Source: Arthrobacter cryoconiti | GTDB lineage: Bacteria > Actinomycetota > Actinomycetes > Actinomycetales > Micrococcaceae | Direction of reading: 5' to 3' | DNA length: 64,000 nucleotides | NCBI RefSeq assembly: GCF_020905375.1 | Contig: NZ_JAJJBU010000013.1 | Location: forward strand, 1-64,000 | Part shown: in pieces, positions 5,426 through 27,393 of the stretch | Position numbering within the stretch: the stretch's first letter is position 1 | Layout of the letters: the number at the start of each line of letters is the position of its first letter | Translations under genes and position numbers: made by a program | Notes under the pieces: model-generated | Database searches by the model: none | Told to the model about the DNA's origin: nothing | Seen by the model: only the letters and a program-made list of their open reading frames with translations

Positions 5426-5773
5426 TTATAGAGCGCCAGACTCCGCTTGTTCGCCGTCGTTCTCTGGGACGGATTCGACGACGGCCCGTGTGGCCCGCCG
5501 GACGCTCACGCGATCCAGTATGAGGGCTACGACGGCACCCAGGCCGGCGCCGGGCAGGATCAGCAGAACTGCGAAGAAGCCGAAAATGCTACTAGGTTCA
5601 AAGGCCTCGATGCTGGGGGAAATGAGCGTCAGGATGCCGGCGACCACAAGGCCAAGAATTGCGCCCGCGATCAGAAATGGTACAAATTTGGGGGCCCGAC
5701 GGACCAGCAGCGCACGCCGTTGCGGGGACACTGGCTCAGTGTTTGAAGAATGCTCAACAGGCTGGGAAGTCAT
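5426..5773 (-). CDS. Small two-helix membrane protein upstream of purF
   Basis: The protein has 115 residues. A hydrophilic N-terminus ends in a basic patch (RRALLVRRAPK). Two strong transmembrane segments follow, around residues 32-52 (FLIAGAILGLVVAGILTLI) and 64-85, then a basic loop (RVSVRRATR) and an acidic tail. No enzymatic motif is visible and I do not recognise a named family. The same strand and 43-nt gap suggest it precedes purF in a transcript. Function unknown. Confidence 0.7.
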   Translation of the reverse strand: MTSQPVEHSSNTEPVSPQRRALLVRRAPKFVPFLIAGAILGLVVAGILTLISPSIEAFEPSSIFGFFAVLLILPGAGLGAVVALILDRVSVRRATRAVVESVPENDGEQAESGAL

Positions 5774-5853
5774 AGTTCAAGGGTACCGCCCGAAATGGAG
5801 AGGCCGGTGTGGGAGTAATGCAGCCCCGGTTGAGAGGCCTGCAGAACAGCCAA

Positions 5854-6429
5854 CTAAGGTGCGGTGGCAGGCGTGAGAAGTGGGGTGGCAATGCCAGCTG
5901 ACTCCTTGATGACCAGAGGTATCTTCCCACTTGGGTTGTCCCGCGCGGCCGCAGCCGCGACGGCATCGATCTGCTCTGGGGCAACATAAATGCTCACGGT
6001 GGCGCTGCGCCCGTCGGGAATGATCTTGTGGATGGCAGCACCTTGAAGAGAGGGAAGCTGCGATTGCCAGGTGGAGATGGCTTGGACGGCTCCTTGGAGC
6101 TGCTCCGCATTGAAATCAACTAGCTGAGGGATCGCGCCAGCCCCCTTGACGGCTTTCTCCGCTTCTTGCGTCGTGACGGCCACGTGCAATTCATTGTCCT
6201 GAATCCAAGCATCGGAATAGGCCGGGCCAAGGGATATTTTCAAGGAATCGTTTAATCGCAGTAAGTCGTTGGTGAGAGCATCGTTGGCTTGCTCAGAGAC
6301 TTGCGGCTGACTGCTGTTTGGGGACGTCGCGCTGTTACTTGCGGTGCTTCCGGCGGAACATCCACTCATGCCACATGCTCCCACCATCGCCGCGGCTAAT
6401 GCTGCGACGGCTAGTCTCCTATGGTTCAT
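5854..6429 (-). CDS. Lipoprotein resembling a stand-alone S1-protease (alpha-lytic type) prodomain
   Basis: The protein has 191 residues. The signal peptide ends in a lipobox-like MSGC (Cys24, or alternatively GAC at Cys19), then a Ser/Asn-rich linker. The body contains LGPAYSDAWI, then NELHVAVTT, AVKGAGAIPQLV and LQGAVQAI in order. This order and spacing is what I know from the prodomains of alpha-lytic or streptogrisin S1 proteases (AGAW.., L.VAVTD, AAV..AGA.P..V, L..A..AL). No protease domain follows. The gene starts 14 nt after the stop of the wall-anchored S1 protease on the same strand, so the two are probably co-transcribed. I infer a folding helper or inhibitor acting in trans outside the cell. 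It could instead be an unrelated lipoprotein. Confidence 0.65.
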   Translation of the reverse strand: MNHRRLAVAALAAAMVGACGMSGCSAGSTASNSATSPNSSQPQVSEQANDALTNDLLRLNDSLKISLGPAYSDAWIQDNELHVAVTTQEAEKAVKGAGAIPQLVDFNAEQLQGAVQAISTWQSQLPSLQGAAIHKIIPDGRSATVSIYVAPEQIDAVAAAAARDNPSGKIPLVIKESAGIATPLLTPATAP

Positions 6430-6443
6430 TGGGGTTCCCGAGC

Positions 6444-9008
6444 CTACAGTGTCCTGGTGCGTCTGCGGAAGAGCATGATTGCCCCGCTCATGAGCAGCAA
6501 AATTCCTGCCGCGCCGAGGCCCGCCACGGATGAAGGTACCCCGGTGTTGGCCAGGGGGATGGGACTGGATGGGTTAGCCGCCAGAGCCGCTACGGGGGGC
6601 GAGAGCACTGTAAATGTGGACGTCACGGGTGCCGAAGTGACACCGGACAGGCTTTGGGTTAAGACAAGTGTGTACACGCCGGGTGCCAGCGGATCGTTCA
6701 ACGTCAGGGACCATGTGCTGCCATTGACAGCTGGTGTGTAGCTTTGGCCGTTGAGCAATAAAGTGATCGTGGCTCCGGGAAGGTTGGTTCCGGAGATGGT
6801 GGTGGGAGCGGGATTGAAAACAATCTGCTGGTTGTCGGACAGCGTAGTGGACGACGGCGCCGTAGGGATGACGCTGAAGGTAAGCGTAGCCACGGGGGAG
6901 TCGGCCCAGCCAGCCAGGGTTTGCATGATGGTGGCGGTGTAGCTGCCCAAACCGAGGGCTGGGGAGAGGTGGATGGTCCACGTGCCGCCGGCATCCACAA
7001 CCGTGGTGAATGTCGTGGCACTGGCGAGGCTTCGGGTAGCAAATCGTTGCTTGTTATTGCTGAGTGTACGGGCAGCGTCTGCTTGGCTGCTGATGGCCAG
7101 GGTGAGCGTTGCTCCAGGGCGACCTGTTCCGGTAAAAAGTGAGACTGGGGAGGTGCCAGCTGCAGGCAGTTCAGTGGTGGCCGGCTCTGGCAGTGGCTCC
7201 AAGGCAACATCGAGGGAAGTGCTGGTTGTCAGGGAAGAGTTGAATCCGCTATGGGCCACCGCACTGATGGGGAACGTGCCAAGTTTGTTCGGTGCCGGAA
7301 GTGTCCATGCTCCACTGGCATCGAGCGGGACCGTGGTGGTGGCGCCGTCGATCGTGACGTCGACGGTAGTTCCAGCCGGCGCACCGGGCACCGTGCCCGT
7401 AATGGCCCCTTGCCGGTACACAGGGCTGGAGGAAGCAAACACTGGAGCGTTGAGGAAGATCTTGATGCTGTAGCCGTCAGTGGCGGCCAGCGCAGTGGGT
7501 AAGTCTGCGCTGATTGCCACAAGTGTTCCGTCAGGCATTTGACCGCCTGCACTCGTTAGCCCTACAGCCGTAGTGCCCGAAATGACGGGACCGCCGGAGT
7601 CGCCGGGGCCACTAGCCATGGAGCCGATCGAGGCAAAGCCACGGACGGCGCGCACGTCCAAAAGATTCCCCTGGGGATTATCCTGGGAGGGATAACCGAT
7701 TCCGGCAATGACGTAGACGCCTATTTCGTTCACTGCACCACACGTCCACCCAGTGGTTCTTCCTGATTTGCACACGGGTGCTCCCAGCACGGCGCTGGTG
7801 ACACCGGAAATCTGAACGTTCGCGGGGTCCTGGGAAATTTGCTCCGGAGTTGCAGGATTCCAGGAGCTTGCATTGCTCCAATGAGCCACGGCAGGCAACG
7901 GTGTCAGGGACGCAGCGATCCCGTCTATGACGGAGACATCGGTGCCAATATTTCCGTCCGCGGTTCCGTCTGGATTTTCTATGGTCCAGGCGTTGTTCAC
8001 GCCACCAAATTGTTGGAAGCCGAAGGACCCCAGCGGGGTCAGTTTGGTCACCGGTCCCTGGGCGTTTGTGGCGGCGGTGTCCGTGGCAGGGTTGGTGAGT
8101 GTGGTGACTTTGGCGGCCCCGTCTTCGGCACAGTGCCCTGCAGAGATCACGGCAGGGTGCCCGGATTTGTCGAAGGCGTTGAAGCCCGCACTGCACAGCC
8201 AACCGTTGGTATCGCTGGCATTGACGCTTGCGAAGTAGCCTTGGCCGTTGACTAAATTGTAGGGATCACCCGGAGCGAAATGTGCTTCGGCCGGACCGGC
8301 GGCTGCCTCAATCTTCACGTTTGGGTACTGGGCAGCAAATGCAGCAACGGACAGGGAAACTGGCTTCGCGAAACTCGTGGGAGTGGGTGTGGTGTTGGTT
8401 GCTCTGCCGGTACGGATGACGAATTCACCCGAAGCGTTCCGCGCTACCGAGAACAGGTCTCCCGCTCCAAAAGCCTTGACGTAGTCGCTAAAAAGAGCGT
8501 CAACGCTCGTGGCTTCAGCTTTTGCCACGGAGTTGGCAGGCTGGGAAGGTGCCACGGTGAGCTTGGCTACTCCGGCTATTCCAGCTGCTTTCGAGGCCGC
8601 ATGCGCAGCATCGGCAGCTGCCGCCTCGGTGTGGACAGTGATGGTGTTCCCTGTCAGGGAGACGACGGCGGAGGGGTCAACTGTGGTGACTTCCTTTTGA
8701 AGTGCCGCAGCCTTGGCCGCAAGCTTCCCCTGGGCATTGAACGTTTCAACGCTCATGCCTAGATCGCGTTTGAGAGCAACAGCGAGTCCGCCAGGCGCGG
8801 ATTCGGAGGCAACTGCGGGAGAGGGCGCCACCGTCGATGGGGCTGGTGTAGCCACCGGGGACTGTGCGGCCGGGGATTGCGTGCTGACCGGGTCGGAGGC
8901 CGGGGCGCCCAGTGCCGCGCTGGGAACAAACGTGCTGGCAAGGAAGACTGAGGCGGCGGCGCAGACCACAACCCCACGCCGATAAAAGGCGAGGGTGGAT
9001 GCTTGCAT
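6444..9008 (-). CDS. Cell-wall-anchored S1 family serine protease with Ig-like repeats
   Basis: The protein has 854 residues. A signal peptide (about 1-35) is followed by a Pro/Ser/Thr linker and a prodomain-like region (about 72-240). The trypsin-like domain has the catalytic triad His292 (SAGHC), Asp356 (GTDVSVIDG) and Ser470 (GPGDSGGPV). After it come about three Ig-like modules with recurring G.W.L/GTWTI strands. The C-terminus has LANTG, a hydrophobic helix and RRRTR, a class E-type sortase signal. It should be secreted, processed and attached to peptidoglycan; the substrate cannot be told from sequence. The downstream prodomain-like lipoprotein lies 14 nt after the stop. The ATG start gives an intact signal peptide. 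Confidence 0.9.
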   Translation of the reverse strand: MQASTLAFYRRGVVVCAAASVFLASTFVPSAALGAPASDPVSTQSPAAQSPVATPAPSTVAPSPAVASESAPGGLAVALKRDLGMSVETFNAQGKLAAKAAALQKEVTTVDPSAVVSLTGNTITVHTEAAAADAAHAASKAAGIAGVAKLTVAPSQPANSVAKAEATSVDALFSDYVKAFGAGDLFSVARNASGEFVIRTGRATNTTPTPTSFAKPVSLSVAAFAAQYPNVKIEAAAGPAEAHFAPGDPYNLVNGQGYFASVNASDTNGWLCSAGFNAFDKSGHPAVISAGHCAEDGAAKVTTLTNPATDTAATNAQGPVTKLTPLGSFGFQQFGGVNNAWTIENPDGTADGNIGTDVSVIDGIAASLTPLPAVAHWSNASSWNPATPEQISQDPANVQISGVTSAVLGAPVCKSGRTTGWTCGAVNEIGVYVIAGIGYPSQDNPQGNLLDVRAVRGFASIGSMASGPGDSGGPVISGTTAVGLTSAGGQMPDGTLVAISADLPTALAATDGYSIKIFLNAPVFASSSPVYRQGAITGTVPGAPAGTTVDVTIDGATTTVPLDASGAWTLPAPNKLGTFPISAVAHSGFNSSLTTSTSLDVALEPLPEPATTELPAAGTSPVSLFTGTGRPGATLTLAISSQADAARTLSNNKQRFATRSLASATTFTTVVDAGGTWTIHLSPALGLGSYTATIMQTLAGWADSPVATLTFSVIPTAPSSTTLSDNQQIVFNPAPTTISGTNLPGATITLLLNGQSYTPAVNGSTWSLTLNDPLAPGVYTLVLTQSLSGVTSAPVTSTFTVLSPPVAALAANPSSPIPLANTGVPSSVAGLGAAGILLLMSGAIMLFRRRTRTL

Positions 9009-9061
9009 GTGGTTCTCCCTGAGAAGGTCGACGCGGTTGGCCAGAATTTGAGGGTGAGGCT

Positions 9062-9112
9062 GATAGTACGTGTAAAACTACTATCAATGCCCAGCGTTGT
9101 GGGCAGAGTCAA
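9062..9112 (-). promoter_or_regulatory. Candidate control region of the S1 protease gene
   Basis: On the minus strand a good -35 (TTGACT, 9107-9112) lies about 100 nt before the protease ATG, but no strong -10 stands at 17 nt. Just downstream lies the inverted repeat GATAGTA-N10-TACTATC (9062-9068 and 9079-9085), which would sit over the -10/start region and could be an operator. The rest of the gap 9009-9158 is featureless. Confidence 0.3.
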
Positions 9113-9158
9113 GAGTTTAGTCCCTGAAGGCCGCGAATGTTACGCCAAACTGGCCGAA

Positions 9159-9512
9159 CTAGAGGGGAAGGACCTCGGAGAGGTCTGCCCGCAGGCCAGA
9201 GGCGGCCACGAGTCCCTGCCCGACGGCGTCGGACCAAGTGGTACGCCCGCTCACGAGCGCCAGCCAGGTGTCAGCGTTGCACTCGACAACGTTGGGAGGT
9301 GTGCCGCGGGTATGGCGGGGACCGGCGATGCACTGTGTGACTCCGAACGGAGGAACCCGCACTTCCACTGAATTACCGGGGGCCCTGGCCGTGATTTCCT
9401 CCAGCGCATAGCGCACAGCCATGGCCGTGACCGCCCGATCCACACTCCCCTGACACCAAGCCTGGAGGGCAGAACGACCTTCTGTTTCCGCTATGCGCCG
9501 ACGGGCAACCAT
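9159..9512 (-). CDS. Sterol-carrier-fold family protein
   Basis: A 117-residue protein starting [13 protein letters not shown]. It carries the motifs [37 protein letters not shown], a proline/threonine turn ([19 protein letters not shown]) and TWSDAV. These match the short actinobacterial SCP-like family found next to purine genes. Its ligand is unknown. It starts 9 nt after the asparaginase gene and should be translated from the same transcript. Confidence 0.8.
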
Positions 9513-26208: not shown

Positions 26209-27393
26209 ATGTTTGGTTTCTCTTGGCTCGACGCGCTGTTGATTGTGTGGCTGCTGTGGCAACTCATCTACGGACTCAATGTTGGACTGTTAGTGAGCAT
26301 TGGTGGGCTATTGGGCTTCATCGCGGGAGCCGTAGGCGCTTTCTTTGCTGCCCCGTTCGCTAACCAATATGCGCCCGGTCCTGCATGGCGCACGGCGTTT
26401 GTCATTGGTGTAACTGTGATTTTGATTGGCGCAGGCCATGCTGTGGGCATCCGGATTGGCAGTGCGATTGGTCGCCGGGTGAAATCGGGTCCGGTGCGGT
26501 CTGCCAACCGCATTATGGGTGGGGCGTTGAACGTGGTGGTGGGGGCCGCCGTCGTGTCAGTGATAGCCCTGGGTGTGGGTAACCTCGGCATCCCCGCTGT
26601 TTCAAATCAGCTCAGTAACTCCATGGTGATCTCCAAGATCGATGCGTGGACCCCGGACCCGGTCAAGGGTGCCGTGGCACAGTTGCGCTCGCTTGTCATC
26701 GAGGAAGGCATCCCCCAACTTCTCAACCCTTCCGGGCCGAACGTTGCGGTAGCAGTCCCTGACGCCAACACCAACACACCCGCATGGAACAATGCAGCTA
26801 AATCGGTCCTGAAAATATCCGGTACGGCGTTCCAGTGTGGCCAGAATCAGACCGGCACCGGTTTTGTTGTGGCTCCAGAACGAGTCCTGACTAATGCGCA
26901 CGTGGTGGCGGGAGTGACAATGCCGCTGGTGCAAACCGCTACTAAGGGTGCATTGAAAGCTCGAGTGGTGTTCTTTGACCCGGTAAAGGATCTGGCGATC
27001 TTGGCTGTTGATGGTCTGGACGCTACCCCTTTGACCACTGCACCGACGCTGCCGGCCAACGCCTCCGCGGCCTTTGCCGGTTACCCGCTGGGAGGGCCGC
27101 TACAGGTGCGCGCGGCCACCGTCATCACGTCCGGTCCGCTACTGATTCCGGACATCACAGGCACTCAAAAGTCCATCTTAGATGTCTATCAACTCGCCGG
27201 AAACGTCCAGTCAGGTAACTCAGGGGGACCACTTTTGGACCCGGCCGGTCATGTGGTGGGCGTGGTGTTCGCTAAGTCAACGACCAACGAGCCAGTGGGA
27301 TTCGCGTTCACCATGGATGAGGTGGCACCTGTGATGGCGGCAGCTTCTCAGCTCAGCAGTTCCGTGAACTCGGGTAGCTGCACCACTAAATAG
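26209..27393 (+). CDS. MarP family membrane serine protease (CvpA-trypsin fusion)
   Basis: A 394-residue protein. Four membrane helices of a CvpA-like domain fill residues 8-125. A periplasmic-side protease domain has His231 (LTNAHVVAG), Asp261 (DPVKDLAIL) and Ser338 (VQSGNSGGPL). Two cysteines (Cys210 and one near the C-terminus) could form the disulfide known in MarP. In Mycobacterium the homologue protects against acid and oxidative stress by cleaving cell-wall hydrolases; the same role here is inferred. It is divergent from crp. Confidence 0.93.
   Translation: MFGFSWLDALLIVWLLWQLIYGLNVGLLVSIGGLLGFIAGAVGAFFAAPFANQYAPGPAWRTAFVIGVTVILIGAGHAVGIRIGSAIGRRVKSGPVRSANRIMGGALNVVVGAAVVSVIALGVGNLGIPAVSNQLSNSMVISKIDAWTPDPVKGAVAQLRSLVIEEGIPQLLNPSGPNVAVAVPDANTNTPAWNNAAKSVLKISGTAFQCGQNQTGTGFVVAPERVLTNAHVVAGVTMPLVQTATKGALKARVVFFDPVKDLAILAVDGLDATPLTTAPTLPANASAAFAGYPLGGPLQVRAATVITSGPLLIPDITGTQKSILDVYQLAGNVQSGNSGGPLLDPAGHVVGVVFAKSTTNEPVGFAFTMDEVAPVMAAASQLSSSVNSGSCTTK

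Follow-up and report, generated by a model that had tools for sequence, protein, structure and literature searches.

How is a secreted S1 protease controlled when the gene beside it encodes a prodomain without a protease, and when the enzyme carries a pro-region of its own? This question is raised by a gene pair of Arthrobacter cryoconiti in the window, i.e. the whole stretch of 64,000 nucleotides (nt) analysed here (contig NZ_JAJJBU010000013.1). Both genes are on the minus strand: a protease with a sorting signal at 6444-9008 and then, after a spacer of 14 nt, a lipoprotein at 5854-6429. Alpha-lytic protease is the textbook case of an enzyme whose prodomain acts in cis as folding catalyst and inhibitor, and prodomain action is also known without a covalent link. 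The presence of a stand-alone prodomain beside a wall protease suggests that the enzyme is under the control of a second surface protein. Our reading is that the membrane-tethered prodomain acts in trans, folding and/or blocking the adjacent protease during export, and we give it a probability of about two in three.

Fold of the lipoprotein

The lipoprotein has 191 residues, and the motifs AYSDAWI, LHVAVTT and AVKGAGAIPQLV, from which a preliminary description had recognized a prodomain without an attached protease, were all located in its sequence. Its lipobox cysteine, Cys24, is invariant in the genus alignment and occupies the same column in 38/38 homologues under a permissive pattern; lipid modification at this residue is probable. 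The AlphaFold2 model, obtained with 16 homologues, has a mean predicted local distance difference test score (pLDDT) of 86.1 and the element order H-EE-H-E-HH-EE-H-E (H, helix; E, strand). In a Foldseek search of this model, all 7 matches at E<=0.001 were chains of the alpha-lytic pro region, aligned at near full length (best E 1.1e-5; template modelling (TM) scores of 0.63-0.67 by model length). VIA returned Z scores of 11.6, 11.5 and 11.2 for 3pro, 4pro and 2pro, respectively, the next entry reaching 6.8. Structure comparison thus agrees with the family membership that had been proposed from the motifs, and the assignment of the lipoprotein as an S1 prodomain by its modelled fold is well supported.

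The end of the protein deserves particular attention. Model residues 1-132 pair with residues 30-166 of the pro region in 4pro, so that L184 coincides with the final pro-region residue, although the pLDDT of the model tail is below 50, which bears on this C-terminal alignment. In 37/38 lipoproteins, the C-terminus lies at most 9 residues from the position that corresponds to the pro/mature junction; tail lengths are 10-19 residues, with a single exception of 34. The lipoprotein is under purifying selection: the ratio of nonsynonymous to synonymous substitution rates was 0.07-0.49 in 14 scored comparisons of 15. Outside the 38 homologues, a locus of Arthrobacter sp. ATA002 (L187, 3644-4834) contains a lipoprotein frame that lacks the usual stop and continues for well over 100 residues more.

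Other assignments were considered and discarded. Searches of Pfam, NCBIfam and the PDB sequences with the lipoprotein yielded nothing usable. Designed repeat proteins and importins, found with the lipoprotein profile among PDB sequences at E 0.002 and worse, were taken as chance. Weak matches to Secretin_N in 9/16 lipoproteins (best E 0.007) were rejected as reflecting a common arrangement, as were BON-like, KH-like and other alpha-beta folds, whose scores in the fold searches were much lower than those of the pro region. Among the matches listed in the Foldseek and VIA searches with the lipoprotein, there was no subtilisin propeptide chain, i.e. no representative of the MEROPS I9 fold.

Relationship to prodomains in cis

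Where else does this domain occur? A profile built from 38 lipoproteins matched 18 of the 297 genomes of the order, and the 14 of these that lie outside the family carry 18 matches (E down to 8e-14 per genome). All of the 18 order-level loci that were re-searched proved to hold a prodomain in cis of an S1 zymogen, AGHC and GDSGG following downstream in 19/20 matched frames; the remaining frame is cut by the locus edge. At class level, 99 of 394 genomes were matched, 98 of them outside the family (E down to 1.4e-16 per genome), and in 29/29 loci checked, which are those retrieved from the 98 genomes, the match stands ahead of AGHC and GDSGG (29/30 frames, one being edge-cut). Outside the family, the open frames among the matches listed are all at least 349 amino acids (aa) long. 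With all order- and class-level loci that were checked being in cis, the stand-alone form was seen solely in Micrococcaceae. A survey (PMC2605481) also mentions the alpha-lytic prodomain together with a trypsin domain within one chain.

Comparison of the lipoprotein profile with 21 cis prodomains gave a probability of 99.3 over 133 columns, which is not independent evidence because 18 of the 21 had been chosen by the same profile. Taken at the level of sequence, homology between the lipoprotein and the cis prodomains of S1 zymogens is well supported.

Pairing with the adjacent protease

Within the genus, intact lipoprotein genes are present in 15 of 23 genomes (16 copies) and full or near-full protease genes in 17 (18 copies); one further genome (G006) has a protease remnant of 180 aa and no lipoprotein, and five have neither gene. 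The lipoprotein gene lies directly downstream of the protease gene in 15/16 copies, and in G008 the two are found at the ends of two contigs. Among the 148 genomes of the family, the lipoprotein occurs in 27, belonging to 6 of 32 genera, and all 27 have the protease; it is directly downstream in 26 and at contig ends in one. Protease matches were obtained in 39 genomes of the family, including three in genus g47 to short enzymes with prodomain and protease in a single chain, which were excluded from the count and from alignment A4. Of the remaining 36 genomes, 27 have the lipoprotein and nine do not, and the other 112 genomes have neither gene (Fisher p 3e-22, a nominal value as the genomes are related). 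Outside the genus, 22/22 lipoproteins immediately follow the protease in the same orientation, and in 38/38 copies the two proteins are in separate open frames.

A scan of named genomes, which overlap with those of the family survey, returned 28 stand-alone records and one Streptomyces record, in which the match is in cis. The stand-alone records come from Arthrobacter, Paeniglutamicibacter, Glutamicibacter, Kocuria and one Micrococcaceae assembly; upstream of the lipoprotein is a protease in 25 and the end of a protease in two (cut contigs), and one lipoprotein is located at a contig end. The plasmid records searched gave no match. Among open reading frames of at least 100 aa in the retrieved flanks, only the two genes recur across all six genera; neighbours are shared between g44 and g45. 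That the lipoprotein belongs with the adjacent protease is thus well supported.

The protease and the layout of the locus

The protease exceeds the cut-offs of Pfam Trypsin (23.7 vs 20.6 bits) and of the NCBIfam LPXTG model TIGR01167 (18.9 vs 15.9 bits); its immunoglobulin (Ig)-like repeats were matched below theirs. By sequence, its nearest solved structures are a serine protease (2oua), a chymotrypsin (2ea3) and chains of alpha-lytic protease. The intact triad and the LANTG sorting signal that had been read from the sequence are present, as H292, D357 and S471 and as residues 819-823. The features of the locus are the following:

6444-9008, minus strand: S1 protease gene (alpha-lytic/streptogrisin-like, secreted, sortase signal), 854 aa
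8547-8792, minus strand: N-lobe of the protease's own pro-region, residues 73-154, H-H-EE-H-E
8304-8504, minus strand: C-lobe of the protease's own pro-region, residues 169-235, H-EE-H-E, behind a variable linker
8133-8135, minus strand: codon of catalytic His292
7938-7940, minus strand: codon of catalytic Asp357
7596-7598, minus strand: codon of catalytic Ser471 (GDSGG)
6540-6554, minus strand: LANTG sorting motif, followed by a hydrophobic stretch and RRR
6430-6443, minus strand: intergenic gap of 14 nt, the shortest among 37 measured pairs
5854-6429, minus strand: stand-alone prodomain lipoprotein gene, 191 aa
6358-6429, minus strand: lipoprotein signal peptide, lipobox ending at Cys24
5878-6273, minus strand: two-lobed prodomain fold (modelled), lipoprotein residues 53-184, aligned to alpha-lytic pro region 30-166

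The triad is intact in 51/51 aligned proteases (38 paired, 10 unpaired and the three of g47), and the sorting motif is present in 47/51, being absent in G135 and the three g47 enzymes. Two sortases are encoded in the A. cryoconiti genome. As a query of this genome, the protease matches itself only, and PF00089 finds two further proteins, which we take, by reading, to be MarP-like and HtrA-like. PF00089 matched only 2/10 S1 zymogens tested and may thus miss another S1 client; a single-chain S1 zymogen was therefore added as query, and its sole match was this protease. The presumably MarP-like protein, encoded at 26209-27393 of the window on the plus strand, is a membrane protein of 394 aa that includes a trypsin-like domain.

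Coordinates, strand and lengths of the pair are as first described, including the 14-nt spacing, but the latter is peculiar to the A. cryoconiti genome: over the 37 measurable pairs, from which the split pair of G008 was excluded, the gap ranges from 14 to 215 nt with a median of 161. In most relatives it exceeds 100 nt, and in some it is similar between species and may contain a regulatory element. A scan for promoters found none, and a scan for terminators gave chance level only.

The gene order in 13 related loci is purD, protease, lipoprotein, an asparaginase-like gene and two small genes; purF comes next in ten of them, and in three the retrieved stretch stops earlier (these gene names are tentative, being read from the sequences). 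One genome (G015, L050) has two protease-lipoprotein pairs, of which one is without surrounding pur genes. In the window, at 5426-9512, the pair sits between the two small genes, unlike at these 13 loci, so that either the pair or its neighbours have moved and the pair was kept together.

The pro-region of the protease itself

The own pro-region of the protease has the element order H-H-EE-H-E, linker, H-EE-H-E. In Foldseek, alpha-lytic pro chains top the list, yet at E 0.004 and a TM score of 0.28. VIA aligned it to 4pro with Z 6.0 and a root-mean-square deviation (rmsd) of 11.7 over 135 residues, unrelated entries reaching up to 7.5, and to 3pro with Z 5.9 and rmsd 2.8 for the N-lobe alone. 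The prodomain-like region that had been ascribed to the protease is thus recognizable by a similar order of elements, whereas its match to the alpha-lytic pro region is only loose. Profile-profile comparison gave a probability of 94.4 against the cis prodomains and of 8.3 against the lipoprotein; an origin of the lipoprotein by duplication of this pro-region is accordingly unsupported. The cis pro-region that the protease retains is diverged; it is the lipoprotein that shows the compact canonical form. The N-lobe is missing in 5/48 aligned relatives, namely the paired G001, G022, G005 and G007 and the unpaired G135. The G135 protease (locus L147), which has no N-lobe, sorting signal or lipoprotein, is encoded ahead of a putative signal peptidase gene.

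Proposed mechanism and alternatives

According to the proposed mechanism, the lipoprotein would be a complete S1 prodomain that has a separate gene and is held by a lipid tether on the outside of the cytoplasmic membrane. The tethered prodomain would bind the catalytic domain as the protease leaves the secretion channel and help it to reach the active fold, and its C-terminal tail may fill the active site as a product-like inhibitor; the enzyme would stay blocked close to the membrane until its transfer into the wall by sortase. The fold, the end near the junction, the selection, the zymogen query that matched no further protease of this kind and a lipid tether that would lie where the protease emerges, the wall anchor then carrying the enzyme off, together argue for binding of the neighbour in trans. 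As for what binding achieves, inhibition is favoured by the lineages in which the protease persists on its own, and folding by the weak cis pro-region; the lack of the N-lobe in the pro-regions of four paired genus proteases was counted for the trans reading. A more elaborate version can be put forward only tentatively: the pair might be a two-part zymogen, its folding and inhibitory half remaining lipid-anchored in the membrane and its catalytic half, which keeps just a degenerate pro-region in cis, being sent on for attachment to the wall. Activation would then come from departure from the membrane and not solely from the enzyme's cleavage of its prodomain.

A number of observations weigh against action in trans. 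The protease carries its own pro-region, and since the N-lobe is missing in the unpaired G135 protease as well, its loss is not tied to pairing. The pairing expected from the preliminary description holds for the lipoprotein, which always occurs with the protease (27/27), but not for the protease, which lacks an intact lipoprotein partner in 9/36 family and 2/17 genus genomes; the lipoprotein is thus not always needed. The nine include G135, without sorting signal, and G082, which is cut by a contig end and, though counted here, was used neither for the alignment and tree nor for the triad check. All ten alignable proteases among the eleven unpaired ones keep the triad, so the family as a whole cannot depend absolutely on the lipoprotein for folding. 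In a tree of 51 catalytic domains, from which the G006 remnant was excluded, unpaired rows are scattered and require six changes, four of them forced by well-supported branches. Together with two decayed copies, this scatter points to repeated loss of the lipoprotein, the protease being able to dispense with it in some lineages. Covariation of rates, assessed in 11 of the 15 paired genus genomes, is not significant: beyond the species tree, partial r is 0.25 (permutation p 0.088) for lipoprotein and catalytic domain and 0.32 (p 0.058) for lipoprotein and Ig region. The Pfam model PF02983 (59 positions), by which membership in the prodomain family could be checked with hidden Markov models, did not agree with the structural match: it was unmatched at E<=1 in the window lipoprotein and in 16 lipoproteins. 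The same model is present in 8/10 cis relatives tested and absent in 2/10; its search of the A. cryoconiti genome gave no match, and the control likewise matched nowhere. Finally, the named record L187 runs through the usual lipoprotein end without a stop, and the model tail is of low confidence.

The decayed copies, lipoprotein C-terminal ends just downstream of a protease with intact triad, are found in G003 and G014 (L065 and L066).

How do other explanations fare? The lipoprotein could be a pure inhibitor, a safety catch in the manner of the I9 family of subtilisin propeptide inhibitors that only blocks the mature protease near the membrane while the protease folds by its own pro-region. 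We consider this unlikely as the whole account, although the protease retains a two-lobed pro-region and is found in several lineages that lack the lipoprotein, whose C-terminus is close to the pro/mature junction position, and although stand-alone propeptide-like inhibitors are known for subtilisins (PMC6993865). The own pro-region is, however, a weak match to the alpha-lytic one (best E 0.004, TM 0.28; Z 6.0, rmsd 11.7), and together with the missing N-lobe in four paired genus copies this suggests that folding help may be needed. The converse, a Lif-like foldase that folds the exported protease and releases it, any inhibition being incidental, would suit an adjacent downstream gene with a membrane tether and one client, and PMC3352829 places Lif among the steric chaperones, along with the propeptides of alpha-lytic protease and subtilisin. 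Folding nevertheless seems possible in the ten alignable unpaired proteases that keep their triad, which makes a foldase pure and simple decidedly unlikely.

That the lipoprotein shields the cell from S1 proteases of other bacteria, the neighbour not being its target, might be supposed because it is closer to the cis prodomains of other actinobacterial proteases than to the neighbour's pro-region (profile-profile probability 8.3). The lipoprotein was, however, not seen without the protease, be it in the family survey (27/27 genomes), outside the genus (22/22 directly downstream) or in the named records (27/28 with the protease or its end upstream, one at a contig end), and we regard the idea as improbable. 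Still more remote is a functionless relic, i.e. what remained of a second protease after loss of the catalytic domain. Cis prodomains are indeed the lipoprotein's nearest relatives by sequence among those found, and decayed copies exist in two genomes, but purifying selection, a lipobox in 38/38, the near-constant C-terminus and persistence over six genera amid mostly different neighbours speak against it. Binding in trans, combined with folding, inhibition or both, thus remains the reading that we prefer.

Relation to known systems

The alpha-lytic/streptogrisin prodomain (PF02983; 2pro, 3pro and 4pro) resembles the lipoprotein in its two-lobed fold over the full length, in the order of elements and in a C-terminus near the junction. 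The lipoprotein differs by being a separate gene with a lipobox, no attached protease and no PF02983 match, and by having a partner protease that carries another pro-region of its own. The single-chain S1 zymogens of g47 have a cis prodomain that the lipoprotein profile matches (E 3e-5 in two, 0.003 in the third), and PF02983 is present in the one tested; they differ in uniting prodomain and protease in one chain, and no sorting motif was found in them. The lipase foldase Lif has a different fold and is encoded beside its lipase gene. According to PMC3352829 and PMC7046727, Lif/LipH is similarly a membrane-bound steric chaperone for one secreted enzyme, but its client is unrelated and it acts in the Gram-negative periplasm. 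A propeptide fold likewise forms an independent protein in the MEROPS I9 inhibitors (Pleurotus inhibitor 1, yeast peptidase B inhibitor and Arabidopsis propeptide-like inhibitor 1) and the mimic TgMIC5, as covered in PMC6993865; these concern another protease family and another fold, and the examples are eukaryotic, whereas a lipid anchor and strict pairing with one protease are features of the Micrococcaceae lipoprotein. The remark in the preliminary description that such two-part control is not known as described is in line with the open literature, in which we found no description of this protease-lipoprotein pair, most subscription papers lying outside that search.

If the proposed mechanism is true, a natural trans version would illustrate the division of a covalent zymogen between two genes. 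This version is kept in six genera beside one protease and would be tethered at another surface layer than its client. Among bacterial S1 proteases, the pair would then parallel the I9 inhibitors and the lipase foldases.

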